Positions 382 to 19,148 of a stretch of 64,000 nt of DNA are shown in pieces. The DNA comes from Caballeronia sp. Lep1P3 (lineage in GTDB: Bacteria; Pseudomonadota; Gammaproteobacteria; Burkholderiales; Burkholderiaceae). The notes below the pieces were generated by a model. It worked only from the letters and a program-made list of their open reading frames with translations, was not told where the DNA came from and did no database searches. The stretch spans positions 558,001 to 622,000 of the forward strand of contig NZ_CP084267.1 of assembly GCF_022879595.1 (NCBI RefSeq), read 5' to 3'. The stretch's first letter is position 1. Each line of letters starts with the position of its first letter. A program made the position numbers and the translations under genes.

Positions 382-1470
382 ATGACATCCGCATTCCTGC
401 AAATCCAGCGCCTGCGCAAGACCTACGATCAGGTCGTCGCCATCGACAATGTCTCGCTCGAAATCAAGCGAGGCGAGTTCATGACTTTTCTCGGGCCGTC
501 GGGTTCCGGGAAGAGCACCACGTTGTATATCGTCGCGGGCTTTCAGGAGCCGACCGAAGGACGCGTGCTACTCGACGGCAAGCCGCTGCTGTCCGTTGCG
601 CCCAACAAGCGCAACATCGGAATGGTGTTCCAGCGCTACACGCTGTTCCCGCATCTGACGGTGGGCGAAAACGTGGCGTTTCCGCTGCGTGTGCGTCGCA
701 GGCCGGAGGCCGAAGTCAGGCAGAAGGTCGAGAAGATGCTCGCGCTCGTGCATCTGTCGGAGTTTCGCGACCGCATGCCCGCGCAGATGTCCGGTGGACA
801 GCAGCAGCGCGTCGCGATCGCGCGCGCGCTCGCTTACGATCCACCGGTCTTGTTGATGGACGAACCGCTCTCCGCGCTCGACAAGAAGCTGCGCGAAGAG
901 ATTCAGCTCGAATTGCGCCGTATTCATCAGGAGACGGGCGTGACGATTCTCTATGTCACGCACGATCAGGAAGAGGCACTGCGGTTGTCGGATCGCATCG
1001 CGGTGTTCAACAAGGGGCGCATCGAACAATGCGGCACGGGCGAGGAGTTGTATGCGAATCCGGCATCGAAGTTCGTGGCGAATTTCATCGGCAATTCCAA
1101 CTTCCTTCCGGTTCGCGTGACGACGAGCAACGCCGGGCAATCGACCGGTGTGTTTCCGAATGGCCATGCCGTCGCCACTACCGGCAGCTCCGCGCTCTGT
1201 GCAGGCGATGACGGCGCCTTGATGGTGCGTCCGGAACAGATGCGCATCCGCCCGCTCGGTGTATCGAACGGATCGGCCGGATTGCCGGTTACGGTGCGCG
1301 ACATCACGTATCTCGGCGACGCGATGCACTATGCGGTCCAGACGCCGTGGCAGCAGGAGATTTCGATTCGCATGCCCGCGGGCGATCATCGCGACAGCGG
1401 GCTTGCGATCGGAACCGAGGCGCTGGTCGATTGGGATGCACGCGATGTCAGACTCTTTGCACAGGCCTGA
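382..1470 (+). CDS. ABC transporter ATP-binding protein, PotA-like
   Basis: ATPase subunit energising the importer encoded just upstream. 362 aa. It has Walker A GPSGSGKST near residues 38-46, a Q-loop (MVFQRYTLFPH), the signature MSGGQQQRVAIARAL, Walker B VLLMDEPLSALD and the switch histidine in YVTHDQEEAL. The C-terminal 110 residues are a TOBE-type regulatory domain, typical of the spermidine/putrescine and iron/thiamine ATPases. The stop is 3 bp before the GntR regulator gene, so regulator and transporter are probably co-transcribed. The proximity of a semialdehyde dehydrogenase suggests an amine or amino-acid substrate, which is an inference. Confidence 0.93.
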   Translation: MTSAFLQIQRLRKTYDQVVAIDNVSLEIKRGEFMTFLGPSGSGKSTTLYIVAGFQEPTEGRVLLDGKPLLSVAPNKRNIGMVFQRYTLFPHLTVGENVAFPLRVRRRPEAEVRQKVEKMLALVHLSEFRDRMPAQMSGGQQQRVAIARALAYDPPVLLMDEPLSALDKKLREEIQLELRRIHQETGVTILYVTHDQEEALRLSDRIAVFNKGRIEQCGTGEELYANPASKFVANFIGNSNFLPVRVTTSNAGQSTGVFPNGHAVATTGSSALCAGDDGALMVRPEQMRIRPLGVSNGSAGLPVTVRDITYLGDAMHYAVQTPWQQEISIRMPAGDHRDSGLAIGTEALVDWDARDVRLFAQA

Positions 1471-1473
1471 TGT

Positions 1474-2181
1474 ATGCGCGAGACGTTGCCTTCCCTGAAA
1501 GTCGAACGCCCGACCGTCACGCTGCGCGAGCTTGCACTGCAGAAGATGCGCACTGCGATCCTCGATGCGCGCTTCTTGCCCGGCGATCGTCTCGTCGAGC
1601 GCGCGCTCTGCGAAGAACTCGGCGTGAGCCGTACCGTCGTGCGTGAGGTGTTGCGTCATCTGGAAACGGAAGGGCTCATTCAGTCTCTGCCGAACCAGGG
1701 TCCGATCGTCGCGATCCTCGACATGGAATCCGCCGCCGAAATCTACGATATCCGTGCGCTCCTCGAAGGAGAAGCGGCGATGGCGTGCGCGCGGCTCGCC
1801 GATGAGAGTGTGGTCGCGGCGCTCGCCGAGTGCATCGAGCAGATTCAGACCGCTTTCGACGCACGCGATCACCACGAAGTGCGCGACCTCACCACGGCGT
1901 TCTATGAGCGCATGTTTCGGGGCGGACAACGATGTGTCGCGTGGGAAGTGGTTCAGTCGCTGACCGCGCGTATCAATCGCCTGAGAGCGTTGACGATCGC
2001 CTCCGACGATCGTGGCCGGCAAGCGGTCGAGGAGATGCGTCGAATTCTCGCCGCGATACGCGCGAAAGAACCTGTAGAGGCGCGCGATGCCGCTCGCGCG
2101 CATGTCGAACGCGTGGCGGAGATCGCGCAGAGACTGCTGGGCGAAGGACATGAGCACGCACTGCAAAAGCGCGCCGGATAA
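1474..2181 (+). CDS. GntR family transcriptional regulator (FadR/FCD subfamily)
   Basis: DNA-binding repressor or activator, 235 aa. The N-terminal winged helix-turn-helix is recognised from ILDARFLPGDRLVER and LGVSRTVVREVLRHLETEGL (about residues 25-75). The C-terminal all-helical FCD ligand domain starts near YDIRALLEGEAA; FCD domains usually bind small carboxylates, often through a metal. It sits immediately behind the ABC ATPase and ahead of the porin, so it probably controls the surrounding uptake and oxidation genes. The effector is unknown. Confidence 0.9.
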   Translation: MRETLPSLKVERPTVTLRELALQKMRTAILDARFLPGDRLVERALCEELGVSRTVVREVLRHLETEGLIQSLPNQGPIVAILDMESAAEIYDIRALLEGEAAMACARLADESVVAALAECIEQIQTAFDARDHHEVRDLTTAFYERMFRGGQRCVAWEVVQSLTARINRLRALTIASDDRGRQAVEEMRRILAAIRAKEPVEARDAARAHVERVAEIAQRLLGEGHEHALQKRAG

Positions 2182-2268: not shown

Positions 2269-3429
2269 ATGGCTAAAGGTTTCGTCAAGGCACACGTCGC
2301 ATGCGCATTGATGGGCGGCGCATTGCTCGCGGCAAACGCACACGCGCAGTCGTCGGTGACGTTGTATGGCGTCATCGACGAAGGTATCGACTATGTGAAC
2401 AACAGCGGCGGGCACGCGCTCTGGCGCATGCGCGACGGCACGTATGACGGCGTGTACGGCAGCCGCTGGGGCCTGAAGGGAAGCGAGGACCTGGGCGGTG
2501 GATTGAGCGCGATCTTCAAGCTCGAAGCGGGCTTCAGCACGGAGAACGGACAAAGCCGGCAAGGTGGGCGCTTCTTCGGGCGACAGGCGTATGTGGGTCT
2601 TTCGGATGCGCGTTTCGGCACCGTTACGCTCGGCCGTCAATACGATTCCGTCGTCGATTATCTGCAGCCACTGACCGCGCCTGGACAACTCGCCGGGCCG
2701 CTGATTCATGCAGGCGATATCGACAATACCGACAACTCGTTTCGCGTCGACAATTCAGTGAAATACGCGAGCCCGAAAATCGGCGGCCTGACGTTTGGCG
2801 GACTGTATTCGTTCACCAATACAAATGCGACAGGACGCGGCACCACGGGCCTGTGGAGCGTCGGCGTGAACTATGCGTTCGGTCCGGTGAACGTCGCGGG
2901 CGCATACCTGTATGCGAAGAACCCGGCGCTCTTGCTGTCCGATGGAAACTATATCGGCAACACGACAGGCGCGGCCATCGGCGCGTCCGGACCGTTCAGC
3001 TATGTCGGCAATCCGGGCAACGAGCAGATCTTCGGCGCGGCCATCAACTATGCGCTCGGCAAGGCGACGCTCGGCATCGATTACACCGACACGAAGTTCA
3101 ACGACGCGAACGGCACCAACGGCACCGTGCGCTTCGACAACTACGAAGCGTGGGGACGCTACAACCTGACGCCAGCGTGGTATGTCGGCGCACAGTACGT
3201 CTACACGCACGGCAATATCGGCTATAGCCAGGCCATTCCGATCTATCACCAGGTCGGTCTCACCACGGCCTATGCGCTTTCGAAGCGCACGTCGCTCTAC
3301 GCGATGGGCGTCTGGCAAAAGGCGGCCGGCGCGGCCGCGAACGCCGACATATTCGATGGCGCGATCGCGTCTGCGTCGACCAATAACCATCAGCTCATGG
3401 GACGCGTCGGCATCTATCACCTCTTCTGA
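2269..3429 (+). CDS. Gram-negative outer-membrane porin
   Basis: Trimeric general or substrate-selective porin, 386 aa, of the OmpC-like Burkholderiales family. A signal peptide is clear: MAKGFVKAH, a hydrophobic stretch, then ANAHA with cleavage before QSSVTLYG. The mature chain shows alternating beta-strand patterns, a conserved WGLKGSEDLGGG segment and GRQAYVGL, and ends in HLF, the C-terminal aromatic signal for outer-membrane assembly. A strong GGAGGA ribosome site precedes the ATG. It lies in a block with an importer, a dehydrogenase and a carrier, so it probably serves the same substrate. Confidence 0.93.
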   Translation: MAKGFVKAHVACALMGGALLAANAHAQSSVTLYGVIDEGIDYVNNSGGHALWRMRDGTYDGVYGSRWGLKGSEDLGGGLSAIFKLEAGFSTENGQSRQGGRFFGRQAYVGLSDARFGTVTLGRQYDSVVDYLQPLTAPGQLAGPLIHAGDIDNTDNSFRVDNSVKYASPKIGGLTFGGLYSFTNTNATGRGTTGLWSVGVNYAFGPVNVAGAYLYAKNPALLLSDGNYIGNTTGAAIGASGPFSYVGNPGNEQIFGAAINYALGKATLGIDYTDTKFNDANGTNGTVRFDNYEAWGRYNLTPAWYVGAQYVYTHGNIGYSQAIPIYHQVGLTTAYALSKRTSLYAMGVWQKAAGAAANADIFDGAIASASTNNHQLMGRVGIYHLF

Positions 3430-3504
3430 TTCGCTTCGTCATACGCGCCGTGGCTCGCTTTCACAGCGGGCCTTCCGGCGCTTTCTCACAGTAAAGGAAT
3501 GATC

Positions 3505-4965
3505 GTGGAACTCAAATCCATGCTGAAGGACGCATCGCTGCTTCGCCACGAGGCTTTTATCGGCGGGCAGTGGTGTGCGGCTGATTCAGGCGCGAGCTTC
3601 GACGTGTTCGACCCGGCGACGGGCCGCTCGCTCGGCCACGTGCCGAAGATGGGCGAAGCCGAAACGCTGCGCGCCATCGACGCCGCCAACGCAGCGTGGC
3701 CCGCGTGGCGCGCGAAGACGGCCAAGGAGCGCGCGATCCTGCTGCGCCGCTGGTACGAGTTGATGCTCGAACATGCGGACGATCTCGCGTTGATCCTGAC
3801 GGCGGAGCAGGGCAAGCCCATCGCCGAAGCGAAGGGCGAGATTACGTATGCGGCGTCATTCATCGAATGGTTCGCGGAAGAAGGCAAGCGCGTCGCCGGC
3901 GATACGCTCGCCACGCCCGCCGCCGACAAGCGCATCGTCGTGGTGAAGGAACCGATCGGCGTGTGCGCCGCGATCACGCCGTGGAATTTCCCGGCCGCGA
4001 TGATCACGCGCAAGGTCGGCCCCGCGCTTGCCGCCGGTTGCCCGATCGTCGTGAAGCCGGCCGAATCCACGCCGTTTTCCGCGCTTGCGATGGCCGTGCT
4101 CGCCGAGCGCGCCGGCATTCCGGCAGGCGTGCTCAACGTCCTGACGGGCGATCCCAAGGCCATCGGCGGCGCGATCACCAGCAGCCCGATCGTTCGCAAG
4201 CTGTCGTTCACCGGATCGACGGGCGTGGGCCGCCTGCTCATGGCGCAGAGCGCGCCGACGGTCAAGAAAGTCACGCTGGAGTTGGGCGGCAATGCGCCGT
4301 TCATCGTGTTCGACGACGCCGATCTCGACGCTGCGGTCGAAGGCGCGATCGCATCGAAATATCGCAACAACGGGCAGACGTGCGTGTGCACGAATCGCTT
4401 CTATGTGCACGAACGCGTGTACGACGCATTCGCGCGCAAGCTGGCCGTTGCCGTCGGCAAGCTGAAGGTCGGGCATGGCACCGAGGCGGGCGTGACGCTC
4501 GGGCCGCTCATCGACGATGCCGCCGTGAGAAAGGTCGAAGCGCATATCGCGGATGCGGTGGGCAAGGGCGCCGGCGTGGTCGCGGGCGGCAAGCGTCACG
4601 CGCTGGGACACGGCTTCTTCGAGCCGACCGTGCTCGTGAACGCGACCGTCGATATGTGCGTCGCGAAAGAGGAGACGTTCGGCCCGCTCGCGCCGCTGTT
4701 CCGCTTCTCGAGCGATGAAGAAGTCGTGCGCCTCGCCAACGACACCGAGTTCGGTCTCGCCGCGTATTTCTATAGCCGCGATATCGGGCGCATCTGGCGC
4801 GTGGCCGAGCAACTGGAATACGGCATGGTCGGCATCAACACAGGCGCGATCTCGAACGAAGTCGCGCCGTTCGGCGGCGTGAAGCAGTCGGGGCTGGGAC
4901 GCGAAGGATCGCACTACGGCATCGACGACTATCTCGTCATCAAGTATCTCTGCATGGCTGTTTGA
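3505..4965 (+). CDS. NAD(P)-dependent succinate-semialdehyde-type aldehyde dehydrogenase
   Basis: Cytoplasmic aldehyde dehydrogenase, GabD-like, oxidising a semialdehyde to the dicarboxylate. The catalytic glutamate is in ELGGNAPFIVF and the catalytic cysteine in NNGQTCVCTNR; ITPWNFPAAMITRK belongs to the cofactor site. Start choice: an ATG at 3499 abuts AAGGA with no spacing, while the GTG at 3505 lies about 6 bp behind AAAGGA, so the GTG is preferred; either gives about 486-488 aa, normal for the family. A paralogue of the same subfamily lies at 32328. The MFS gene follows within 21 bp, so they are probably one operon. The true substrate is uncertain. Confidence 0.88.
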   Translation: MELKSMLKDASLLRHEAFIGGQWCAADSGASFDVFDPATGRSLGHVPKMGEAETLRAIDAANAAWPAWRAKTAKERAILLRRWYELMLEHADDLALILTAEQGKPIAEAKGEITYAASFIEWFAEEGKRVAGDTLATPAADKRIVVVKEPIGVCAAITPWNFPAAMITRKVGPALAAGCPIVVKPAESTPFSALAMAVLAERAGIPAGVLNVLTGDPKAIGGAITSSPIVRKLSFTGSTGVGRLLMAQSAPTVKKVTLELGGNAPFIVFDDADLDAAVEGAIASKYRNNGQTCVCTNRFYVHERVYDAFARKLAVAVGKLKVGHGTEAGVTLGPLIDDAAVRKVEAHIADAVGKGAGVVAGGKRHALGHGFFEPTVLVNATVDMCVAKEETFGPLAPLFRFSSDEEVVRLANDTEFGLAAYFYSRDIGRIWRVAEQLEYGMVGINTGAISNEVAPFGGVKQSGLGREGSHYGIDDYLVIKYLCMAV

Positions 4966-4985
4966 ATCGAGAAGAGAGGACCGAT

Positions 4986-6314
4986 ATGGACACGTCGTCG
5001 TTCAACACTGCCGAAGCTCGTGCGTCGATGGCGCGCTCGCGCATACCGTCACGGGTTACATTGCGCATCGTCGCGATTTGCCTTTTGATGATCTTCGCGG
5101 AAGGCTACGACGTGGCCATTTACGGCGCCGTGCTGCCGATGCTCACGCACGGCACCGACTGGTCGCTCTCGCCGCTGCAACTCGGCGCGATAGCGAGTTG
5201 TTCGCTCGCCGGCATGATGATCGGCGCGATGGGCGCGGGAACGATGAGCGACATCGTCGGCAGACGTTCGATGCTGCTCGGCAGCGCGAGCCTCTTCTCG
5301 CTGATGATGGCCGCCGCCGCGCTCGCCCCAACGCCGACATGGTTCGTCATCGCGCGCGTGATCGGCGGGCTCGGGCTTGGCGGCGTCGTGCCGACGGCGG
5401 CGGCATTGACCGTCGAATACTCGCCCGAGAACCGGCGTTCGTTCAACTACGCGCTGATCTACACCGGCTATTCGATCGGCGGCATCGCGGTTGCGCTGCT
5501 CGCGATCGCGTGGCTGCCTTCGCATGGATGGCGAGGGATGTTCTGGCTCGGCGCGATGCCGCTCGCCCTCATGCCGCTGGTCGCGCGCTACTTGCCGGAA
5601 TCGATCGATTTTCTCGTCGCGAAAGGACGTATCGATGAAGCTCGCTCGGTCGCGCGACGGCTCGGCATTCACTTGCCTTCGAACGCATGCGACGCGCGTG
5701 ACGTGCCGCGCGATGGACGCGCCGCGCCGGTTCGCGCGCTCTTCGATGCGTCGTCCATTCGCGCGACAGTCGCGTTCTGGATCGCCATGTTCATGGGTCT
5801 GCTATTGCTTTACGGCCTGAGCACGTGGCTGCCGCAATTGATGCGAAAGGCCGGCTTTCCGCTGGGATCGAGCCTGGCGCTGCTCGCCGTGCTGAACCTC
5901 ACGGCGGCGTTCGGATCGCTCGCCGGTGGCGCGATCGCGGACCGGTTCGGCTCGAAGCCGGTCGTCGGCACGCTGTACGTGCTGGCGGCGGCAAGCCTCT
6001 GCGCATTGCCGTTTACGCACGAACTCGCCGGAATCTACGTACTGGTCGGTATCGCGGGCGTCGGCACGATAGGCAACACGATGCTACTCGGCGCGTATAT
6101 CACGCGCTACTATCCGCCGGCGAGCCGGGCGACCGGAATCGGCTGGGCGCTCGGCGTGGGGCGCTTCGGCGCGATCGCCGGTCCGCTGATCGGCGGATTG
6201 ATGGTGCAGTTCGATGCGCCGTTGACATGGAACTTCTATGTCTTCGCGATTGCGGGTGTTCTGGCTGCGTGTGTGCTCGCGCTGGTGCCGAAGAGCGCCA
6301 GCGAGCCGCAGTGA
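4986..6314 (+). CDS. MFS transporter, aromatic acid:H+ symporter-like
   Basis: Twelve-helix inner-membrane carrier, about 442 aa. The first helix carries AEGYDVAIYG, close to the D-G-Y-D motif of the aromatic acid:H+ symporter group (PcaK/BenK/MhpT), and the loop between helices 2 and 3 has the MFS A-motif as MSDIVGRRS. The second half starts after a cytoplasmic loop near residue 235. The ATG at 4986 has GAGAGGA 5 bp upstream; a TTG at 4962 overlapping the previous gene is rejected. Coupled to the semialdehyde dehydrogenase gene. The substrate is probably an organic acid, not proven. Confidence 0.88.
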   Translation: MDTSSFNTAEARASMARSRIPSRVTLRIVAICLLMIFAEGYDVAIYGAVLPMLTHGTDWSLSPLQLGAIASCSLAGMMIGAMGAGTMSDIVGRRSMLLGSASLFSLMMAAAALAPTPTWFVIARVIGGLGLGGVVPTAAALTVEYSPENRRSFNYALIYTGYSIGGIAVALLAIAWLPSHGWRGMFWLGAMPLALMPLVARYLPESIDFLVAKGRIDEARSVARRLGIHLPSNACDARDVPRDGRAAPVRALFDASSIRATVAFWIAMFMGLLLLYGLSTWLPQLMRKAGFPLGSSLALLAVLNLTAAFGSLAGGAIADRFGSKPVVGTLYVLAAASLCALPFTHELAGIYVLVGIAGVGTIGNTMLLGAYITRYYPPASRATGIGWALGVGRFGAIAGPLIGGLMVQFDAPLTWNFYVFAIAGVLAACVLALVPKSASEPQ

Positions 6315-6323
6315 CGTAAGCCT

Positions 6324-7052
6324 TTACGAGCCGCGCAAAGCGGCGGACTCGACGAAGCGCGTGAGCAAGTCGCGCGCTTCCTGCGTGTCCCGCAAATTGC
6401 CGATCAATTCATCGACGTTCAACCCTTCTTCCGATAACGCGTCGGCGCGCCGGCGGATGCATGCCTCGGTGATGCCCGGCGTGAACTCTGGATGGAACTG
6501 CGTCGATACGGCGTTCGGCCCGTAACGCACGATCTGATACGCATCGTGGGCCGACGACGCGAGCACTTGCGCGTGAGGCGGCAGTTTCACGATCGATTGC
6601 TCGTGCATCAGGTGGGCTTCGAACGTCTGCGGGCTGCCGGCGAGTAGCGCGTCATTCGCGGCTTCGGATGAGAGACGTATCCGCTGGCATCCGACCTCTC
6701 GTCCTCGCGGATGGTAGTCGACACGTCCCCCGAGCGCATGAGCCATGAGTTGGTGGCCATAACATACGCCGAACATCGACACGCCGACTGTCATCGCCTC
6801 ACGAATCCATTGAGCCGTCGCTTCGCTCCACGCAAGTCTGTCCGTGACCATCGACCATGAGCCGGTGATCACAGCAATCTGATTCGACTGAGGCCGTGGC
6901 AATGCCTCGCCCTCGAAGACGCGAACGACCCGCATCGTTTCCGATTCACTACCCAGCACGCGCCTGAACCAAAGAGGAAAATCGCCGTGCGATGACCGGA
7001 TGTCTGCAGGCGGGGTGCCGGTTTGTATGAGCAGAAGGGAAGGCGAAGTCAT
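6324..7052 (-). CDS. Class I glutamine amidotransferase-like protein
   Basis: 242 aa protein of the GMP-synthase glutaminase-like family (GATase1). The nucleophile is Cys97 in GVCYGHQLMAHALGG, and the His-Glu pair of the triad is in TQFHPEFTPG. Stand-alone members hydrolyse gamma-glutamyl amides or supply ammonia to a partner; no synthetase partner is adjacent. It converges with the upstream MFS gene (9 bp apart) and is separated from the permease operon by the terminator at 7081-7109, so it is a separate transcription unit, although a role in nitrogen release from the same substrate is possible. Confidence 0.85.
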   Translation of the reverse strand: MTSPSLLLIQTGTPPADIRSSHGDFPLWFRRVLGSESETMRVVRVFEGEALPRPQSNQIAVITGSWSMVTDRLAWSEATAQWIREAMTVGVSMFGVCYGHQLMAHALGGRVDYHPRGREVGCQRIRLSSEAANDALLAGSPQTFEAHLMHEQSIVKLPPHAQVLASSAHDAYQIVRYGPNAVSTQFHPEFTPGITEACIRRRADALSEEGLNVDELIGNLRDTQEARDLLTRFVESAALRGS

Positions 7053-7080
7053 CGTTCAATGGAGTTGATAAAACGAAAAC

Positions 7081-7109
7081 GCGGTAGCCGTGCGATGCAC
7101 GGCTACCGC
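7081..7109 (-). terminator. Rho-independent terminator of the NCS1/monooxygenase operon
   Basis: A perfect 13-bp inverted repeat (GCGGTAGCCGTGC, loop GAT, then its complement) lies just past the permease stop on the minus strand. Read in that direction the hairpin is followed by GTTTTCGTTTT, the U-rich tail of an intrinsic terminator. It separates the 7132-13496 operon from the amidotransferase gene. Confidence 0.88.
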
Positions 7110-7131
7110 ATAGAGACGATCAGCTTGCCGC

Positions 7132-8544
7132 TTATTTCGTGACTTGAGCGCCTGCAGGCGCACTGTGATGCGAACGAAGATCGCGCTTTGTTGCGAACAC
7201 GTAGTAGACGAGCGCCGTGGTGACGAGGCCGATCATCCACGACACATCGGCGCCGCCCGCGATATGCGCGAGTGGCCCGTGAAAGAAACTCTCTTCCATG
7301 AACGGCACCTGAACGACGATGCCGACGACATAGATGAAAATCGCCTTCGCGTTGAACCGGCCATACGCGCCTCGCGTGCTGCCGATTATCTCCGACACCT
7401 GATAGTGCCGGTCATTGATCAGATAGAAGTCGACGAGATTGATCGCGATCCACGGCGCGAGCACGATACGCATCGCGAAGACGGCGGTGAGGAAGATCGA
7501 AAGGAAGTTGCTCGACGCCCACAGCGCGGTCATCGTCGATGCCAGTAACAGCACCGCCGATACGCCGATCCGCACGCCCCGGCCCGGCACCCACTTCGGA
7601 CGGAATGTCTGCGCGGCCGTAATGAACGAGAGCACCGCGCCGTAGAGGTTCATCCCGTTGTGGCCGATGATGTTCACGAGAAAGAGAAAAATCAGCACGT
7701 AGCCGAACATGCCTGTCTGGGTCTGAACCGCGTCCATCGCATCGGTGCCTTGACTCGTGCTGACGGCCAGCACGCCGAAGATAAACGCGAAAATGGTGCC
7801 GAGCGACGTGCCGAAGTACGTGAAGGCGAACGTCCTCGCGAAGCCGGTCGATTTCGGCAGATAGCGCGAATAATCGGACGTATAGGGTGCGAAGCTGATC
7901 TGCCAGACCGCGCACAGGCCGAACATCGCGAACCAGTTCGACAACTCGAAGTGTCCGCGCTGAAGCATCTGCGCGTCGAGCCCCGGCAGCATCAGTGCAA
8001 TGCCGATCATGAGCGCGATGCCCATGAACCACGCGCCCACCTTGTTGAAGCGGTGAATGAAGTTATAGCCGATCACGCCGATGAGCGTGGCGAGGATCGC
8101 GCCCAGAATGGTCCCGACCGAAGCGGGTATCGCGGGCGCTGCCGTATGAAGCGTCTTGCCCGCAAGAATGATGTTCGATACGAAGAAGCCGAGGTAAATG
8201 ACGGTCGTGAATCCGACGACGAGCAACGAGCCGTATCGACCGAACTGGGCACGGCTCTGGATCATCTGCGGCACGCCGACGAGCGGCCCTTGCGCGGACG
8301 TCAGCGCATGAAAGAGCGCGCCGAAGAACTGCCCGGCCAGGATCGCGAGAATCGCGCTCACGAAGTCGAGCTTGAAAACCAGCACCGACGTCGCGCCGGA
8401 AATCACCGCCAGCGGTGCGACGTTCGTGCAGAACCAGAGGGTAAATAGATCACTCGGCTTGCCATGCCGATGTTCGGCTCCGACGTACTCGATCGAATTG
8501 CTCTCGATCGCCAGAACGCTGTTGTCGTTTGCTGCATCCTTCAT
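7132..8544 (-). CDS. NCS1 family (CodB-like) permease
   Basis: Twelve-helix nucleobase:cation symporter-1 type permease, 470 aa, in the inner membrane. The N-terminal SDLFTLWFCTNVAPLAV and SAQGPLVGVPQMIQSRAQFG, and FAPYTSDYSRYLPK in the middle, are characteristic of the cytosine/purine/allantoin permeases. It is the last gene of the minus-strand operon, 99 bp after the aldehyde dehydrogenase. NCS1 substrates are N-heterocycles (pyrimidines, purines, hydantoins, thiamine-like compounds), the main clue that this operon handles an N-heterocycle. Confidence 0.92.
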   Translation of the reverse strand: MKDAANDNSVLAIESNSIEYVGAEHRHGKPSDLFTLWFCTNVAPLAVISGATSVLVFKLDFVSAILAILAGQFFGALFHALTSAQGPLVGVPQMIQSRAQFGRYGSLLVVGFTTVIYLGFFVSNIILAGKTLHTAAPAIPASVGTILGAILATLIGVIGYNFIHRFNKVGAWFMGIALMIGIALMLPGLDAQMLQRGHFELSNWFAMFGLCAVWQISFAPYTSDYSRYLPKSTGFARTFAFTYFGTSLGTIFAFIFGVLAVSTSQGTDAMDAVQTQTGMFGYVLIFLFLVNIIGHNGMNLYGAVLSFITAAQTFRPKWVPGRGVRIGVSAVLLLASTMTALWASSNFLSIFLTAVFAMRIVLAPWIAINLVDFYLINDRHYQVSEIIGSTRGAYGRFNAKAIFIYVVGIVVQVPFMEESFFHGPLAHIAGGADVSWMIGLVTTALVYYVFATKRDLRSHHSAPAGAQVTK

Positions 8545-8643
8545 GGTGTCTCCATCTCCAGCTTATGGGGCCGGCTACGCCATGTCACTGACGAGGCGCA
8601 GCCGGATCGGCGAGAAGCCGAATGGCCTTCGAATACGCTGCGG

Positions 8644-10113
8644 TCAACGCATCACGAACGGATCGCTGATCGGATCGTCCGAAGTGCGCAGCCACACTGT
8701 TCTGGTTGTCGTGTATTCGAGTGCCGCGCTCATTCCGCCTTCGCGTCCGTGTCCCGACAGGCCGAAGCCGCCGAACGGTGCGAGCGGCGAAACCACGCGA
8801 TACGTGTTGATCCAGACGATGCCGGATTTGATGCGCTTCGAGACGCGGTGTGCGCGCGTCAGATTGGTCGTGAAGATGCCCGCGGCGAGACCGAAAACCG
8901 TGCTGTTCGCCTTCGCGATGGCTTCCTCTTCCGACGTGAACGTATCGACCGACAGCACCGGCCCGAACAGTTCCTTCGTGATGCAGTCGGGACGATCGAC
9001 GCCCGTGCAGTCGAGAATCGTCGGCGCGTAATAGAAGCCGTCGCGCTCCAGCGTCTTCGCACCCGTGAGCGCCTTCGCGCCTTGCTGAAGCGACTTCTCG
9101 ACGATGGACTCGATGTTGCGTAGTTGGCGCTCGGTGCACAGCGGCCCGAATTCCGTCGCGATTTCGTTCGGTGCGCCTATCTGGATGCGCTCGACGCGCT
9201 CCACCAGCATCGCAAGGAAACGGTCCTTCACGGATTGCTCTATCAGCAGCCGCGAACCGGCCACGCAGCTTTGCCCGCTGGCCGCGAAGATGGCCGCGAC
9301 TTGCGCGTTCACCGCGCTTTCGATGTCGGTATCCGCAAACACGATGAACGGCGACTTGCCGCCCAGTTCGAGCGAGACCTTGGCGAGATTGTTCGCCGAG
9401 TTCGACACGATATGCCGCGCGGTTTCGGGGCCACCGGTGAACGCGATCTTCGACACTTTCGGATGGCCGCTCAGCACCGCGCCGCATTCCGGTCCGAAGC
9501 CGGTGATGACGTTGACCACGCCCGGCGGAAAACCGGCTTCGTGAACGAGCTTCGCGAATTCGAGCAGCGGGCCGGGGCCGTCTTCCGATGCCTTCAGCAC
9601 CACCGTGCAACCGGCGGCGAGCGCCGGACCGACCTTCACCGCGGACAGAAAAAGCTGGCTGTTCCACGGAACGATGGCCGCGACTACGCCAATGGGTTCG
9701 CGCTCCAGCCAGACCTGCATGTCCGGCTTGTCGACGGGAATGTGACTGCCTTCCAGCTTGTCGGCGATGCCCGCGTAGTACCGATAGTATTCGGCCACAT
9801 ACGCAATCTGGCTCGACGTCTCGCGGATGATCTTGCCTGTGTCGCTCGTTTCGATCCCGGCGAGACGCGGCGCGGCTTTCTCGACGAGTTCGGCAAGTTT
9901 GTAGAGCAGCTTGCCGCGCTTCGATGCGGTCAGGCCCGCCCACGCGGGATCGCTCAACGCGCGCTCGGCTGCATCGACTGCGCGATTGACCTGCTCGGTG
10001 CGTGCTTCGGGCATCTGCGCCCACACCTTGCCCGTCGCCGGATTCACGCTGCCGAAGGTGGCCGCGCCAGTTTCGAACTGTCCGTCGATATAAAGCTGAA
10101 ATTGATCGTTCAT
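8644..10113 (-). CDS. NAD-dependent aldehyde dehydrogenase
   Basis: 489 aa aldehyde dehydrogenase of the betaine-aldehyde/5-carboxymethyl-2-hydroxymuconate-semialdehyde type. The catalytic Glu is in LELGGKSPFIVF and the Cys in ASGQSCVAGSRLL; IVPWNSQLFLSAVKVGPAL is the cofactor-binding region. It lies 10 bp behind the LLM monooxygenase, so the aldehyde or semialdehyde it oxidises is probably made by ring opening by that enzyme and the hydrolase. Family is certain, substrate inferred. Confidence 0.92.
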   Translation of the reverse strand: MNDQFQLYIDGQFETGAATFGSVNPATGKVWAQMPEARTEQVNRAVDAAERALSDPAWAGLTASKRGKLLYKLAELVEKAAPRLAGIETSDTGKIIRETSSQIAYVAEYYRYYAGIADKLEGSHIPVDKPDMQVWLEREPIGVVAAIVPWNSQLFLSAVKVGPALAAGCTVVLKASEDGPGPLLEFAKLVHEAGFPPGVVNVITGFGPECGAVLSGHPKVSKIAFTGGPETARHIVSNSANNLAKVSLELGGKSPFIVFADTDIESAVNAQVAAIFAASGQSCVAGSRLLIEQSVKDRFLAMLVERVERIQIGAPNEIATEFGPLCTERQLRNIESIVEKSLQQGAKALTGAKTLERDGFYYAPTILDCTGVDRPDCITKELFGPVLSVDTFTSEEEAIAKANSTVFGLAAGIFTTNLTRAHRVSKRIKSGIVWINTYRVVSPLAPFGGFGLSGHGREGGMSAALEYTTTRTVWLRTSDDPISDPFVMR

Positions 10114-10123
10114 GGAGAGAACC

Positions 10124-11161
10124 TCACGCGAAGGCGGGCATCACGTCGTGGATCATGCGTTCGAGAGAAGCCTTCTTGCGCTCGAAGCTCATGCCGGTGT
10201 CGATCCAGAACGAGTATTCATCGAAGCCGAGTGCTTCGTAATTCTTCAGGCGCGCAATGACTTCTTCCGGCGTGCCGATGACGTTGTTCTTGCGCATCGC
10301 CTCGGGCGTATAGAACGGGTGCGCCGCGATCTCTTCCTGCGTCAGCGGCTTGATCATGCCCTGGCTCACAGGACGCTCGTTTTTGAACCACGCGCCGAAG
10401 TAGTTGTAGAACACGTTCACTTCGTCGGCGGCGACTTGCGCATCTTCTTCGTTGCTCGCCACATACGTATGGCGAAGCAGCATGATCTGCGGACGCGGCA
10501 CGTTGTCGAACTTGCGGCATGCGGCGTTGAAATGGCCGACGAGCTTTTCGACTTCTTCATCGCCAAAATGCAGCGGCGTAACTTGCACGTTGCAGCCGTT
10601 GGCCACCGCGAATTCGTGGCTGTTCGGATCGCGCGCGGCGACCCAGATCGGCGGATGCGGCTGTTGCAGCGGCAGCGGCGAAGACGTCGTCGACGGGAAC
10701 TGCCAGTATTCGCCCTCGTGCGCGTAATCGCCTTCCCAGAGCTTCTTGACCGCAGGAATGAGTTCGCGCATGCGCTGACCGGCGTTCCATGCATCGAGGC
10801 CGGGCAGCAGACGTTCGTATTCGAACGAGTACGCGCCGCGCGCGATGCCGAGTTCCAGCCGTCCGTCCGTGATGATGTCGGTCATCGCCGCTTCGCCCGC
10901 GAGCTTGATCGGATGCCAGAACGGTGCAATGACCGTGCCGGTGCCGAGCCTCACGTTCTTCGTCTTGTTCGCGAGATCGACGAGATTGATGAACGGGTTC
11001 GGCGCGATCGTGAAGTCCATCGCGTGATGCTCGCCGGTCCAGATGGCATGCATGCCGCCGCGATCGGCGATCTGGCACAGCTCGACCATCTCGTCGTAGA
11101 GCTGCTTCTGGCTGGTCTTGTCGGAGACGCGCTCCATGTGAACGAAAAGCGAAAAACGCAT
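10124..11161 (-). CDS. LLM-class flavin-dependent monooxygenase (LuxA-like)
   Basis: 345 aa TIM-barrel oxygenase of the bacterial-luciferase family, using reduced FMN and O2. Visible family features are WTGEHHAMDF, RLGTGTVIAPFWHP, RLELGIARGAYSFEY and PPIWVAARDP. Members open heterocyclic rings (RutA on uracil, PyrA-type enzymes on pyridines) or oxidise aldehydes and thioethers. It is encoded between its likely flavin reductase (11 bp upstream) and an aldehyde dehydrogenase, an arrangement expected of an oxygenase whose product is an aldehyde. The substrate is not deducible from sequence alone. Confidence 0.93.
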   Translation of the reverse strand: MRFSLFVHMERVSDKTSQKQLYDEMVELCQIADRGGMHAIWTGEHHAMDFTIAPNPFINLVDLANKTKNVRLGTGTVIAPFWHPIKLAGEAAMTDIITDGRLELGIARGAYSFEYERLLPGLDAWNAGQRMRELIPAVKKLWEGDYAHEGEYWQFPSTTSSPLPLQQPHPPIWVAARDPNSHEFAVANGCNVQVTPLHFGDEEVEKLVGHFNAACRKFDNVPRPQIMLLRHTYVASNEEDAQVAADEVNVFYNYFGAWFKNERPVSQGMIKPLTQEEIAAHPFYTPEAMRKNNVIGTPEEVIARLKNYEALGFDEYSFWIDTGMSFERKKASLERMIHDVMPAFA

Positions 11162-11172
11162 GATGTGACCTT

Positions 11173-12105
11173 TCAGGAATGAAGCGGGCGGACGGTGCCG
11201 CTGCTATGGTCGCCCAGATATAGGCCGAAGCTCTTCAACTGGCTTTCCTTGCGGTAGCGCTCGAGCATGCTGGCGAGTGCACTGTCCTCGAATGCGAGCG
11301 AATCGATATCGTCGAGATCGACGAACTCGCCCGCGGCGGCGGATTCATCCGGCGCGCTGCAGAGAAAAGTGATGTACTGGTGCTGGGTTTCGGTGTTGTT
11401 GTACGCCGAGTAGATGAAGCTCGCCGATGCGTCCGGCTGGTATCGGCGAAAGAGTGCGGCGAGCGCCTTGTCGGCGCCTTCCTGACCGATCTCGCGCGAG
11501 GGCAGTCCCCATTTGTCATCCGGCGTCTTCGCGAGCAGCACCTTGTCGTCCCGCGCGATGATCGCGCTCACGATCACCTTCGGCCCGGCGATCACTTCCG
11601 CCGACACCTTGGCCGGCGTGAAATAGCCGCCGCGGTAGTAGCCGAGGCCCGCATAGCCCGCCGAATGGAACGCTTCGATCTTGCCGATGATGAGCGCGTG
11701 ATCGCCCGCATCGACGATCTCGTGCGTCGTGCAGTCGAACCACGCGCTCACGCCGGAAAGCAGCGGGTTGTCGTGCGCGCTCATCTGCCAGTCGACGTGG
11801 GCGAAGCGGTCGTCGCTCGGACGCGCGAACGTGTTCGACAAGTCCTTCTGTCCTTCCGCGAGGACGTTGATCGCGAAGTGCCCGGTCGTCGAGAACGTCG
11901 TGAAGTTGCCGGACGTCTTCGCGATGCTCACGAGCAGGAGCGCCGGATCGAGCGACACGGACGAGAACGAGTTGGCGGTAAAGCCGAGCGGCTTGCCGTC
12001 GCTGGTCGCGGTCGTCACGATCGTCACGCCGGTCATGAAGGCGCCGAACGCGTCGCGCAACTCGCGGGTGTTGAGGGGAACTGCGGGAACGGTCTCCTGG
12101 CTCAC
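11173..12105 (-). CDS. Flavin reductase with C-terminal Nudix-like domain
   Basis: Supplies reduced flavin to the neighbouring monooxygenase. Residues 1-165 are an FMN-binding split barrel (FGAFMTGVTIVTT, GFTANSFSSVSLDP, HFAINVLAEGQ, AGDHALIIGKIE). Residues about 180-310 resemble a Nudix fold (PKVIVSAIIARDDKVLLAK, DDKWGLPSREIG) but the Nudix box is degenerate, so a sensing rather than hydrolytic role is likely. About 310 aa against about 165 for a simple reductase. The start is a GTG with GGAGG 6 bp upstream, 1 bp after the hydrolase stop; an ATG at 12135 would overlap the hydrolase by 29 bp and is less likely. Confidence 0.88.
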   Translation of the reverse strand: MSQETVPAVPLNTRELRDAFGAFMTGVTIVTTATSDGKPLGFTANSFSSVSLDPALLLVSIAKTSGNFTTFSTTGHFAINVLAEGQKDLSNTFARPSDDRFAHVDWQMSAHDNPLLSGVSAWFDCTTHEIVDAGDHALIIGKIEAFHSAGYAGLGYYRGGYFTPAKVSAEVIAGPKVIVSAIIARDDKVLLAKTPDDKWGLPSREIGQEGADKALAALFRRYQPDASASFIYSAYNNTETQHQYITFLCSAPDESAAAGEFVDLDDIDSLAFEDSALASMLERYRKESQLKSFGLYLGDHSSGTVRPLHS

Positions 12106-12106
12106 G

Positions 12107-12925
12107 TCAAACCTCCGACTTGATGATTGCTTCATGCGGCTCGAATTGCAGCCACGCGCGCAGGGCCCGATTGACCCGATCGGGCGCGGTCAGGTTCACC
12201 ATATGGCGTTCGTCTTCGATGACGACCGCCTTGCCGTGCTTCGCCGCCTCGGCCATCTGCCGCGCCATGGCGGGCGTCGAGTTCGGATCGTCGGAGCCGG
12301 TCAGCACGAGCGCCGGACACGCGATGTCGTGCCAGCCGTCAGCGTAGGTCTCGTCGCCCTTGGCGAAGGCCGTGTACGCGGTCGCGTAGCCATCCAGATC
12401 GACGGACCGCAGCCACGACTCGACGCGCACTGCGGCGATTTGCTGCGCTTCCTCGGCGTTGAACCAGCGGCGCAACGGCGTTTCCACGTCGATGGTTCCG
12501 GCGCGCAGTTCGGCCGCGCGCTGCAGCACCGCCTGCCGCGCTTCAGGCGTGCGCCGATAGACGCCGTTGAGCACCGCGACGCGCCGGACCAGATCGGGAC
12601 GCGTGACCGCGACGCCCGCCGCGATCAGCGAACCCATCGAGTGACCGGCCAGATTGACCGGTCCGGCGTCCAGCGCTTCGATGAATTCGGCGGCCCATTC
12701 CACGAACTGCGGCAAGCCGGCGCCTGCATCGAGCGATGCGCTTTTGCCGTGGCCGGGCATATCGACGGCAATCACGCGGAAATCGGCCGAGAGGTTCTCG
12801 ATCTGCGGATACCACGCGTTCGCCTGCATGCCGACGCCGTGGATGAAGACCAGCGGTTCACCGATCCCCCGCTCGAGATAGTGAACGGCGCGGTTATTTG
12901 ACAGCTGCAGGGTTCTTTGCGTCAT
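12107..12925 (-). CDS. Alpha/beta hydrolase
   Basis: About 272 aa hydrolase with an intact triad: Ser in AGHSMGS, Asp in TGSDDPN, His in EDERHMVN, and the oxyanion motif FIHGVG. RutD-like or carboxylester/amide hydrolases of this type act on products of flavin monooxygenases. The ATG at 12925 starts inside the preceding PF06684 gene (32-bp overlap), consistent with translational coupling. An upstream in-frame ATG at 12982 would deepen the overlap and is disfavoured. Confidence 0.88.
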   Translation of the reverse strand: MTQRTLQLSNNRAVHYLERGIGEPLVFIHGVGMQANAWYPQIENLSADFRVIAVDMPGHGKSASLDAGAGLPQFVEWAAEFIEALDAGPVNLAGHSMGSLIAAGVAVTRPDLVRRVAVLNGVYRRTPEARQAVLQRAAELRAGTIDVETPLRRWFNAEEAQQIAAVRVESWLRSVDLDGYATAYTAFAKGDETYADGWHDIACPALVLTGSDDPNSTPAMARQMAEAAKHGKAVVIEDERHMVNLTAPDRVNRALRAWLQFEPHEAIIKSEV

Positions 12926-13496
12926 GTCCGAGCTCTGCGAGATCCTTGTAACGATCGCCGATGCGGTGATGCGGGCGGCCACCGGTTGCGCCGCCGATCG
13001 CGATGACCAGTTCGTCGGCTGCGGGCGCGTCGGGAATGGCGAATTGCAGCGTGAGGTAGTGCGAGCGGCGGCCCTCGTCGTTCTTGTCCATCATCGGGAT
13101 TAGAAGCGGTGCATTCGCCGGGCCGCGCGTGTTGTTGAACGCGAGGTACGACTTCGCGCCGACCGCGCTGCGATAGATGTTGCCGAAGTGCAGGGTGTGG
13201 ATCAGCGCGGAGGCGTGCTCCAGTTCGCCGTTCACGCCGACGATCGCGCTCTTGCCGAAGGCTTCGACCGCTTCGCCCGAACCGGCCTCGTCGAGGATCA
13301 GCTTCGTCAGGTGCGCGCTCAACTGCGGACCCAGTTCGCGAATCTCGGGCGACAGGTCTTCGACGTAGCCCCGGCCGGCCCACGGATTCTTGATGACGGC
13401 CGCCGCGCCGATCATCTTGAGCGGCTTGCTCGCGTCTTTGTCGCCATCGACAAAAACGGTTTCGACATGCAGGACTGACTTTCGGATAAGGGTCAC
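12894..13496 (-). CDS. Amino acid synthesis family protein (PF06684/DUF1185)
   Basis: About 200 aa protein of the poorly characterised PF06684 family. Recognisable stretches are IRKSVLHVETVFVDG, VIKNPWAGRGYVEDL, GKSAIVGVNGELEHASA and AIGGATGGRPHHRIGD. First gene of the operon. The GTG at 13496 is chosen because GAGGA lies 7 bp upstream and gives the usual family length; an in-frame ATG at 13619 would add a 41-residue tail unlike the family. The biochemical role is not known to me; its position suggests hydrolysis, isomerisation or ring-opening next to the LLM oxygenase. Confidence 0.85.
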   Translation of the reverse strand: MTLIRKSVLHVETVFVDGDKDASKPLKMIGAAAVIKNPWAGRGYVEDLSPEIRELGPQLSAHLTKLILDEAGSGEAVEAFGKSAIVGVNGELEHASALIHTLHFGNIYRSAVGAKSYLAFNNTRGPANAPLLIPMMDKNDEGRRSHYLTLQFAIPDAPAADELVIAIGGATGGRPHHRIGDRYKDLAELGHDAKNPAAVK

Positions 13497-13873
13497 GGGA
13501 GCATCCTCGGGTACGTTGATGATGTGTCGTATTTTGGTATTCCATAGTACGGCATGCCATCGGCGTTTACCCGGTGCGTAGGGGTCTCCTATGGACGCAT
13601 CTTTTCTCCTCAAGATCAAAGCGCGCTCATCAGGGTTAACGCTATTTCAGTAAAAGCCATACCTGCCGATATGCACTAGTTCGCTGCCAAAGCGCGCGTA
13701 ATAAATTCCGAACGAAGCCTGAGCACAGAACTCAGCGTCAAACGTCAGCTCAAACGTCTTATTCAAGGCCAAACGTTTGCGTGATTCGGAAGCCGACGCG
13801 TCGTCGCGGCGAGCACTATCACAACCCATCGACCGCAAACGTCGGCTGGATGGAAAACTCGGGGGTCACAGGA
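13497..13873. other. Divergent intergenic region upstream of the LLM operon
   Basis: About 375 bp without a convincing gene; a 63-codon minus-strand frame at 13647-13838 has no recognisable content. It must hold the promoter of the minus-strand operon. A short TGG-TATT-CCA palindrome at 13535-13544 and GGCATGCC at 13551-13558 lie 39-62 bp upstream of the chosen GTG and could be operators; the first resembles FadR/GntR half-sites. This is tentative. Confidence 0.35.
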
Positions 13874-14101
13874 ATGAACAGAAAGTCGTTGGATGACGCG
13901 AAGGGCGACATTGGGACAATCGAAAAGGCGGTGCTCACACTTGTGAACCGTCCGCGACTGATCCGCCGCGAATACTGGAGATCGGAAGTCGAGCGTCTGC
14001 TGGGCGGCGCCGACATCACGATCCGCGACCGGCAACGGCTTCTGACGTTACACGACCTGCTTGGCGACGTCGTCGAGAACAACTGGGCCCATGCCAATTG
14101 A
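13874..14101 (+). CDS. Small hypothetical protein
   Basis: About 75 aa, hydrophilic, charged and probably cytoplasmic. It reads like a real protein (MNRKSLDDAKGD, VLTLVNRPRLIRREYW, a predicted helical middle and DLLGDVVENNW near the end) and contains no signal or membrane segment. Starts at 13850 or 13781 in the same frame are possible; none has a good ribosome site. I do not recognise the family. It ends just ahead of the EAL-domain gene and could be co-transcribed with it. Confidence 0.5.
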   Translation: MNRKSLDDAKGDIGTIEKAVLTLVNRPRLIRREYWRSEVERLLGGADITIRDRQRLLTLHDLLGDVVENNWAHAN

Positions 14102-14242
14102 CTTGTGAGCCTGGCCTCGAGCGTCGGCAAAGAAGAACCAGAAGATCATGGGCGAACACGTCTCGAGGCGCTGCTGGCGGATTCAAACGACACCGAAACG
14201 CGCCGCCCGCTGCGCTCCGTGCGAAGGCGACGGGTGACGGCC

Positions 14243-16108: not shown

Positions 16109-17236
16109 CTACGACATGCTGTCCAGCGCTTTCGCGAATCTCGCCGCCGTGCCGTCGATGTCATGCAGCTTGTCCAGACCGAACAAGCCGATGCGAAACG
16201 TCTTGAAGTCTCCCGGCTCGTCGCATTGAAGCGCAACGCCGGCGGCGATCTGCACGCCCGCATCGGCGAATTTCTTGCCGGAGCGGATGTCATCGTCGTC
16301 CGTGTAGCAGACCACGACGCCCGGCGCTTCGAAACCGTCGGCGGCTACGCTTTTGAAGCCCTTGTCGGCGAGAAGCGAGCGAATGCGCTTGCCGAGTTCG
16401 AACTGTTCCGCCTTCACTTTCTCGAAGCCGTATGACTCGGTTTCCTTCATCACGTCGCGAAGTATCGCGAGGCTGTCCGTGGGCATCGTCGCGTGATAGG
16501 CGAAGCCGTTGTTCTCATAGGCCTCCATGATTTGCAGCCATTTGCGAAGGTCGCAGGCGAAACTGGAACTCGTCGTCGCGTCGATTCTTTCGCGGGCGAG
16601 AGGACTGAGCATGACGAGGCCGCAGCACGGCGATGCGCTCCATCCCTTTTGCGGCGCGCTGAGGAGCACATCGACGCCGCTCGCTTCCATGTCGACCCAG
16701 ATCGTGCCCGAAGCGATGCAATCCAGCACGAACATTCCGCCGACGTCATGAACCGCATCGGCCACCGCGCGCAAGTACGAATCGGGCAACAGTATCCCGG
16801 CTGCGGTCTCGACGTGCGGCGCGAACACGAGGTCCGGCTTCTGCTCCCTGATCGCCGCGACGACTTCTTCCACCGGAGGCGGGGCAAATGCGGCCTGCCT
16901 GCCTTCGGCGACGGGACGCGCCTTCAGCACGGTCGATTCGGAAGGAATGCCGCCCATGTCGAAAATCTGCGACCAGCGGAAACTGAACCAGCCGTTGCGG
17001 ATGACAAGACACTTCTTGTTCGTCGCGAACTGCCGGGCAACGGCTTCCATGCCGAAGGTTCCGCTGCCCGGTACGACTACGACAGACCTGGCGTTGTAGA
17101 CCTTCTTGAGCGAAGCGGAAATATCGCGCATGACGCCCTGAAAGCGCTGCGACATGTGGTTGAGCGATCGGTCGGTAAAGACGACCGAGTATTCGAGGAG
17201 TCCATCTCGGTCGACATCGGGGAGTAACGCTGGCAC
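16109..17236 (-). CDS. Class V PLP-dependent aminotransferase
   Basis: About 375 aa enzyme of the alanine-glyoxylate/serine-pyruvate/2-aminoethylphosphonate transaminase group. The PLP Lys is K197 in SAPQKGWS and the Asp pairing with the pyridine nitrogen is in VLDCIASG; GSGTFGMEAVARQF is the phosphate-cup region. Start: the GTG at 17236 has AGGAGG 5 bp upstream, whereas an in-frame ATG at 17332 adds 32 residues unlike the family. Single-gene unit on the minus strand. The actual amino donor is unknown; phosphonate genes are absent nearby. Confidence 0.87.
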   Translation of the reverse strand: MPALLPDVDRDGLLEYSVVFTDRSLNHMSQRFQGVMRDISASLKKVYNARSVVVVPGSGTFGMEAVARQFATNKKCLVIRNGWFSFRWSQIFDMGGIPSESTVLKARPVAEGRQAAFAPPPVEEVVAAIREQKPDLVFAPHVETAAGILLPDSYLRAVADAVHDVGGMFVLDCIASGTIWVDMEASGVDVLLSAPQKGWSASPCCGLVMLSPLARERIDATTSSSFACDLRKWLQIMEAYENNGFAYHATMPTDSLAILRDVMKETESYGFEKVKAEQFELGKRIRSLLADKGFKSVAADGFEAPGVVVCYTDDDDIRSGKKFADAGVQIAAGVALQCDEPGDFKTFRIGLFGLDKLHDIDGTAARFAKALDSMS

Positions 17237-17341
17237 GCTCGCCTCCTGTAACAGACTAATAAAGGAATGACTTCTGATTCTAACGATAACCGTGGCGAAG
17301 CCGCGCGCGCTGCAAGTCGGCTCTATACGCATCGGCGGTCG

Positions 17342-18703: not shown

Positions 18704-18997
18704 CTAAAAGGTCCCGTCAGCCGTTGATTCCGACGGCCTGGCGACGGCTGATTCCGAACAGGCTACGTTGCAAAGCATCGCTTCCAGCCGGGCGAGCGCC
18801 AAAAAGGGGCGTCGCAGCACGGCGAGCGAGCGCGCCACCGCAAGGTCGGTCTGTCGCGCGAGATCCAGGCGGCAGAACGGCTCGGCCACGTCACACAGTT
18901 CCAGAATCCGGTCTCTGTCTACATTATGTGAACCGGGTTCCAGTTCCTCTCTGCAGTGGCGCAGGCTGCTTATGAGATCGAATACGCTGGCTTGCAT
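18704..18997 (-). CDS. Small hypothetical protein
   Basis: 97 aa, no family recognised. Residues 1-75 look like a genuine helical protein (VFDLISSLRHCREELEPG, RDRILELCDVAEPFCRLDLA, RRPFLALARLEAMLCNVA) with three to four cysteines. It is upstream of, and divergent from, the molybdenum oxidoreductase operon. The last 20 residues look low-complexity. The opposite strand frame is weaker. Confidence 0.5.
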   Translation of the reverse strand: MQASVFDLISSLRHCREELEPGSHNVDRDRILELCDVAEPFCRLDLARQTDLAVARSLAVLRRPFLALARLEAMLCNVACSESAVARPSESTADGTF

Positions 18998-19148
18998 GGC
19001 ACTCCCCGACGGTTTCGCGCGTGCTACCCGTCATCGGGCAAGCGGCTATGGATGTCTCACCAGCAATAAGACGGCCCGCCATGCCGCGTGGACCTTGCTC
19101 GCAAGGCACGCGGCATGCTCGGAACCGGGATTCCCGTATGGAGATCCC

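Follow-up and report, generated by a model that had tools for sequence, protein, structure and literature searches.

A probable trigonelline (tgn) catabolic cluster of Caballeronia sp. Lep1P3 and its two-domain flavin reductase

Perchat et al. 2018 (PNAS) are said to have worked out the individual reaction steps, intermediates and products of the route by which the soil bacterium Acinetobacter baylyi degrades trigonelline, a compound common in plants; in this route, oxidation by TgnC reportedly precedes hydrolysis by TgnD, the last step being the oxidation of succinate semialdehyde by TgnE. Here, we compare with this system a stretch of 64,000 nucleotides (nt) from Caballeronia sp. Lep1P3, referred to as the window at its full length, in which a cluster of six genes (positions 7132–13496) is very probably (about 0.92), judging from sequence comparison, a tgn cluster, i.e. 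a set of genes for the catabolism of trigonelline (N-methylnicotinate), and as such a new member of a known pathway. As for the enzymes of that pathway, the available part of PMC8269262 attributes the opening of the trigonelline ring to TgnA/TgnB, and the available part of PMC7913881 describes TgnF of the A. baylyi ADP1 pathway as a homologue of its PF06684 protein that stimulates TgnE.

The six-gene operon and its counterparts

The interval 7132–13496 is filled by six intact open reading frames (ORFs), all on the minus strand and followed by a terminator-like hairpin (identities are to A. baylyi):

12894..13496, minus strand: tgnF homologue with a GTG start at 13496; PF06684, E 5e-66; 82% over 200 residues to strain DSM 14961
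12107..12925, minus strand: tgnD homologue, alpha/beta hydrolase, with an ATG start at 12925 that is common to relatives; PF00561, E 2e-26; 65%
11173..12135, minus strand: tgnA homologue, flavin reductase with a Nudix-like C-terminal domain; PF01613, E 1e-40, residues 31–173; 64%
10124..11161, minus strand: tgnB homologue, LLM flavin-dependent ring-opening oxygenase; PF00296, E 5e-57; 82%
8644..10113, minus strand: tgnC homologue, lactone/aldehyde dehydrogenase; PF00171, E 3e-158; 77%
7132..8544, minus strand: NCS1-family permease, probably for trigonelline uptake; PF02133, E 6e-44; 59% to the NCS1 gene at the same place
7111–7079, minus strand: terminator-like hairpin 3' of the NCS1 gene, 15 pairs (10 G-C) followed by a T-rich tail TTTCGTTTTA

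An earlier sequence-only reading of the window had named the same six packed genes and families and had placed a single terminator behind them, in agreement with our results. The hairpin has the longest stem among the terminator-like sites listed for 6200–14200 and is located at a gene end; since that scan returned 12 sites versus a mean of 6.7 (standard deviation 2.8) in shuffled sequences, the weak sites carry little meaning. A scan for promoter-like sites gave one where 2.1 were expected, and we therefore claim no promoter.

Eleven window proteins were compared by blastp with the ORFs of the tgn locus of the A. baylyi type strain DSM 14961 (L058), with a similar result by tblastn. Eight of them have a single clear partner: the six operon products, at the identities listed above, and the homologues of TgnE, a succinate-semialdehyde dehydrogenase (SSADH; 62%), and of a GntR regulator (44%). 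The genes tgnF-D-A-B-C-NCS1 stand in the same order and on the same strand in both loci. The order is again the same on a plasmid of Acinetobacter sp. PK01 (L009), where a divergent GntR gene is followed by genes annotated as an amino acid synthesis family protein, an alpha/beta hydrolase, tgnA, tgnB, tgnC, a cytosine permease (NCS1), a hypothetical protein and an SSADH; the orthologue of TgnC is annotated there as a (Z)-2-((N-methylformamido)methylene)-5-hydroxybutyrolactone dehydrogenase. The PK01 record is one of 420 plasmid records matched by the window LLM protein at E 1e-20; its protein, 83% identical, bears the annotation tgnB, flavin-dependent trigonelline monooxygenase oxygenase component.

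The sequence-only reading had proposed a comparison of genome neighbourhoods. Of 555 relatives confirmed in a scan of genome contigs, we compared the best 80, including the A. baylyi type strain; these are the loci closest by TgnB and are not representative of the whole family. In 74 of these 80 closest loci, F-D-A-B-C keep this order on a single strand, so that the arrangement is not due to chance: it is found in 27 of the 32 Burkholderiaceae loci, in all 17 loci of a gamma group (Acinetobacter, one Xanthomonas and one metagenome-assembled genome titled Wohlfahrtiimonas) and in 30 of the 31 others, which are alphaproteobacterial by their titles. Of the six exceptions, five lack tgnA, and the sixth is a contig beginning within tgnD. 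An NCS1 gene directly follows tgnC in 43 of the 80 loci (26/32 Burkholderiaceae and 17/17 gamma), while the alphaproteobacterial clusters, e.g. that of Sinorhizobium meliloti pSymA (L013), differ in that none of the 31 has an NCS1 gene of at least 45% identity at this place; in L012 and L013, tgnC is followed instead by genes for a NIPSNAP protein and an ABC transporter. An SSADH gene of at least 55% identity lies inside the locus in 16/32 Burkholderiaceae, 17/17 gamma and 11/31 alphaproteobacterial cases, many loci being cut at their ends.

In a quick TgnB tree (94 rows), the window belongs to a 53-row clade that includes Acinetobacter TgnB (Shimodaira–Hasegawa-like approximate likelihood ratio test, SH-aLRT, 98); its nearest neighbours are from Caballeronia (94% identity), which by itself makes a Caballeronia the probable source of the window, and it stands apart from divergent copies, termed TgnB2 and described below. 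Among 274 genomes from the class to which the window belongs, TgnB was detected at E ≤1e-40 in only seven, its own included, with identities down to 39%, and the short loci fetched from these genomes are incomplete or have different neighbours. Searches of the window's own genome returned a single PF06684 match (E up to 0.001) and a single TgnB match (E up to 1e-40), that is, no second copy of either.

Predicted route and competing explanations

From the gene content, order, orthology and conservation observed here, we infer the substrate, its uptake and its conversion in Caballeronia sp. Lep1P3. Trigonelline would enter through the NCS1 carrier, with MFS and ABC carriers encoded nearby as alternatives. 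Thereafter, (i) TgnA would reduce flavin with NADH; (ii) TgnB would open the pyridinium ring with the help of O2 and this reduced flavin, yielding N-methylformamido-methylene hydroxybutyrolactone; (iii) TgnC would oxidise this lactone to N-methylformamido-methylene succinate; (iv) TgnD would hydrolyse the latter to methylamine, formate, CO2 and succinate semialdehyde; and (v) TgnE, encoded at 3499–4965, would convert the semialdehyde to succinate, aided by TgnF. The sequence-only reading had this route right in outline, with a two-component LLM flavin monooxygenase opening an N-heterocycle, an oxidation, a hydrolysis and an NCS1 carrier; it had put hydrolysis before aldehyde oxidation, the reverse of the order that the described route reportedly follows.

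The part played by TgnF may be reflected in the layout of its gene, which overlaps tgnD by 32 nt in the window. The overlap measures 26–35 nt in 82 of 86 F-D pairs (the window's own copy included), counted on full ORFs whose starts were chosen by script as those nearest to the window's; the remaining four pairs give −4, −4, +18 and +35 nt, and the S. meliloti locus, unlike the window, has no overlap. On the basis of this recurrent overlap, our working hypothesis is that TgnF most likely acts on the product released by TgnD; it might speed the decarboxylation or tautomerisation of a carboxylated semialdehyde ahead of TgnE. The high frequency of the overlap frames a testable question about the role of TgnF and of the PF06684 family, whose solved members include 2QTP and 3BYQ.

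Several points weigh against the assignment to trigonelline. At E 1e-5 (blastp), the A. baylyi locus yields no match to the porin, MFS and amidotransferase proteins encoded beside the operon. The A. baylyi identity of the NCS1 permease (59%) is the lowest of the six, and the strain compared was the type strain DSM 14961 in place of ADP1. The names tgnA, tgnB and tgnC are carried by the PK01 record, where they look like annotation transfer. According to the available part of PMC7913881, its authors saw no stimulating effect of the TgnF kind with HcdD, the PF06684 protein of the 7HK4 coumarin cluster. Finally, a second reductase–hydrolase pair, TgnA2/TgnD2, and extra carriers encoded nearby would be compatible with an additional, related substrate.

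The last point bears on the alternative that fares best, namely a tgn-type pathway of unchanged chemistry that has been retuned to a different N-alkylated pyridinium acid, e.g. homarine or a derivative of N-methylnicotinate. It would account for the TgnA2–TgnD2 pair with its adjacent ABC transporter and GntR genes, and it has a parallel in three Caballeronia loci (L022–L024) that contain a second complete set, F2-D2-A2-B2-C2. We nevertheless hold it to be improbable, since TgnB and TgnF of the window are both 82% identical to their A. baylyi counterparts and its TgnB groups with the main clade rather than with TgnB2. In addition, action of TgnA/TgnB on homarine is argued to be unlikely in the available part of PMC8269262, which also reports poorer growth of Ruegeria pomeroyi on homarine than on trigonelline.

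Far less credible than a retuned pathway is the opening of a pyrimidine ring by a Rut-like pathway or of a pyridine ring by a Pyr-like one. The sequence-only reading had compared the cluster with Rut and pyridine-type clusters; the nearest known system is the tgn cluster. The likeness to Rut is one of enzyme class (LLM oxygenase, flavin reductase, alpha/beta hydrolase and permease), and the window proteins match tgn gene by gene instead, the PF06684 gene included. A Rut-like identity was rejected on curated model scores, which cover Rut only: the window proteins reach 85.6 of the 254.75 bits required for RutF and 63.2 of the 238.5 bits required for RutD, and there is no RutA model among 25 of the 28 families listed for the LLM protein. 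To our knowledge, the Rut pathway has no PF06684 gene.

The idea of an undescribed N-heterocycle pathway, advanced by the sequence-only reading partly because it took the PF06684 gene to be foreign to known clusters, deserves next to no credence either: although the PF06684 protein matches no NCBIfam model (0 families) and hence would be missed by sequence reading alone, it corresponds to tgnF of the known pathway (available part of PMC7913881), the A. baylyi tgn locus, with which all six genes are syntenic at 59–82% identity, is a homologous cluster with an assigned pathway of the very kind that this reading had named as deciding against it, and tgn names and literature already exist (PK01; available parts of PMC7913881 and PMC8269262). 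The trigonelline assignment consequently allows the cluster to be annotated tgn and to leave the lists of unknown pathways.

The second domain of TgnA and the TgnA2–TgnD2 pair

TgnA of the window comprises a flavin reductase domain (residues ~24–172) and a Nudix-like C-terminal domain (~175–320). No Pfam domain was detected in the C-terminal part of the window protein, even at E 1. A profile of 18 such domains matches best the C-terminal part of the solved structure 3RH7 (E 5e-30), and also the Nudix hydrolases 3CNG (E 1e-8) and 4HFQ (E 3e-5). The Nudix box of catalytic Nudix hydrolases reads GX5EX7REUXEEXGU; despite the profile match to Nudix folds, the alignment of the 18 domains, read by eye, displays no conserved REXXEE segment, and by this test the domain does not qualify as a catalytic Nudix hydrolase. 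The reductase C1 of p-hydroxyphenylacetate 3-hydroxylase (5ZC2) also combines a flavin reductase domain with an extra C-terminal domain, but its match is limited to TgnA residues 24–172 and does not extend into the Nudix-like C-terminal domain. What this domain senses is a testable question.

Over its full length, window TgnA matches 3RH7 at E 1e-77. When the predicted model of window TgnA (mean predicted local distance difference test, pLDDT, 82.5; predicted template modelling score, pTM, 0.64) was submitted to Foldseek, 3RH7 again came first, with a template modelling (TM) score of 0.44 and a root-mean-square deviation of 16 over both domains, values that make the domain placement in the model unreliable. 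The other matches, among the 50 listed, span the reductase domain only, so that the fold search itself does not confirm the Nudix fold. Note that a search of the PDB with TgnC at E 1e-130 gave no match, this threshold being too strict. The protein in 3RH7, SMa0793 of S. meliloti 1021, is near-identical over 312 residues to TgnA of the pSymA tgn cluster (L013:7066-8004); judged by this near-identity, it is the TgnA of that cluster. A pathway can thereby be named for a structure that a 2026 paper (PMC13327496, available part) lists among those without a known function.

Just left of the window (L100:6466-9204, i.e. G000:C3:552466-555204) lie a second GntR gene and the genes for an alpha/beta hydrolase, TgnD2, and a two-domain reductase, TgnA2, which is 42% identical to TgnA of the same genome; the TgnA2 and TgnD2 genes adjoin the ABC transporter whose ATPase gene opens the window. 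Full-length TgnA2 (at least 312 aligned residues, 71–77% identity to the copy of the Lep1P3 genome) is encoded in 16 of the 32 Burkholderiaceae loci and also on a plasmid (L011), and TgnD2 at 50% identity or more in 11 of the 32, once at a locus edge.

The loci without tgnA are of particular relevance to TgnA2. In five loci from four assemblies (L014, L022, L023, L024 and L041), tgnA is deleted, together with tgnD in L024 and L041. Remnants of the deleted genes are clear in four loci; that of tgnA in L024 is weak (E 0.06), and L041 retains of tgnD a remnant of 32 residues only. TgnA2 accompanies all five deletions, four times in the same locus and, for L014, on a second contig (L024) of its Caballeronia arvi assembly. 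The pattern suggests that TgnA2 is able to replace TgnA, but five cases out of five are weak statistics given that TgnA2 occurs in half of all 32 loci. The three Caballeronia species with a second complete set (L022–L024) carry it divergently from the first (L022:3185-8108), at 61–67% identity for F, B and C (about 63% for TgnB2); this set possibly handles another substrate.

In five of the 32 Burkholderiaceae loci other than the 16 with full-length TgnA2, all from Burkholderia or Paraburkholderia (L027, L028, L029, L033 and L060), only the C-terminal Nudix-like domain of TgnA2 was matched, at about 5.4–6.3 kb in the loci. This free-standing domain lies in an open frame of 169–189 codons from stop to stop, and the TgnA2 reductase domain has no significant match in the five loci apart from the ordinary tgnA. 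L027 and L028 contain a 21-residue match to the very start of TgnA2 (E 0.59 and 5.7), which fits, but does not prove, an internal in-frame deletion. The ratio of nonsynonymous to synonymous substitution rates (dN/dS) among the five free-standing domains is 0.12–0.24 over ten pairwise comparisons, as obtained by a simple counting method on related species.

Because the reductase part was lost in these five loci while the remaining domain appears to be under purifying selection, the domain may be able to work alone. We tentatively propose that the Nudix-like domain gives TgnA a substrate-sensing function, the binding of trigonelline or a related compound turning on flavin reduction, and that TgnA2–TgnD2 is an interchangeable reductase–hydrolase module with its own ABC carrier, through which a single TgnB could act on a second pyridinium substrate or respond to a second regulatory input. 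Taken jointly, these two suggestions are rather unlikely to be correct; if the second were, it would explain how the presence of TgnA2 made the loss of tgnA and, in two loci, of tgnD affordable. Among the matches listed in searches of the openly licensed literature on tgn, trigonelline, homarine and Nudix/3RH7, no title deals with TgnA2, with the Nudix-like domain in its free-standing form or with a Burkholderiaceae tgn cluster, and the matches listed for Burkholderia pyridine/NCS1 papers contain nothing relevant.

Elsewhere in the window, another flavin reductase-like stretch (37457–37906, plus strand) is 36% identical to the TgnA reductase domain.

Genes around the operon

The following genes lie between the operon and the left end of the window:

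6324..7052, minus strand: class I glutamine amidotransferase, directly behind the operon terminator; PF00117, NF006562 above cut-off
4962..6314, plus strand: MFS transporter, possible second carrier; PF07690
3499..4965, plus strand: SSADH, tgnE homologue; PF00171, 62% to the SSADH encoded with the A. baylyi tgn genes
2269..3429, plus strand: outer-membrane porin; PF13609, 86% to the porin at the same place in Paraburkholderia sprentiae (L010)
1474..2181, plus strand: GntR/FCD regulator; PF00392 and PF07729, 44% to the A. baylyi GntR divergent from tgnF
382..1470, plus strand: ATPase of an ABC transporter; PF00005 and PF08402

Several of these neighbours recur elsewhere. In P. sprentiae L010, a similar block (MFS, gabD, porin and GntR) faces the tgn operon; the MFS gene adjoins the SSADH gene there and in some other loci, and the amidotransferase gene (71%) also lies 3' of NCS1 in Caballeronia sp. 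L036. The permeases and binding protein that belong to the ABC ATPase are encoded left of or across the window edge. The SSADH of the window is 62% identical to the A. baylyi SSADH versus 34% to A. baylyi TgnC. As regards the regulator, two candidates are near-equal in their similarity to the A. baylyi GntR, namely the window copy (44%) and the copy left of the window (43%).

The surroundings of the operon differ from those in A. baylyi. The window tgnE is on the other strand, convergent with the operon and separated from it by the MFS and glutamine amidotransferase genes, and the window GntR gene lies at the far end, whereas that of A. baylyi is divergent from tgnF. The idea of a porin common to the window and the Acinetobacter loci was rejected, the families being different: the outer-membrane-like gene of the latter has no Pfam match in L058 and a Porin_O_P match in L009, and the window porin (PF13609) matches the L058 gene at E 0.21 only, which is not significant. 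Genes for FolD and sarcosine-oxidase-like proteins adjoin the A. baylyi locus; four of its neighbour proteins found no match at E 1e-3 in the window or in the 12 kb left of it (L100). The sarcosine-oxidase-alpha-like protein, the only neighbour searched genome-wide, has its best match (37%) on another contig, which gives no support to methylamine disposal genes tied to the cluster.

Further along the window, positions 18768–20713 encode the [2Fe-2S] and FAD subunits of a xanthine dehydrogenase-like molybdenum hydroxylase, near which lie genes for a class V aminotransferase (16109–17332) and a Na+/H+ exchanger (17342–18649).

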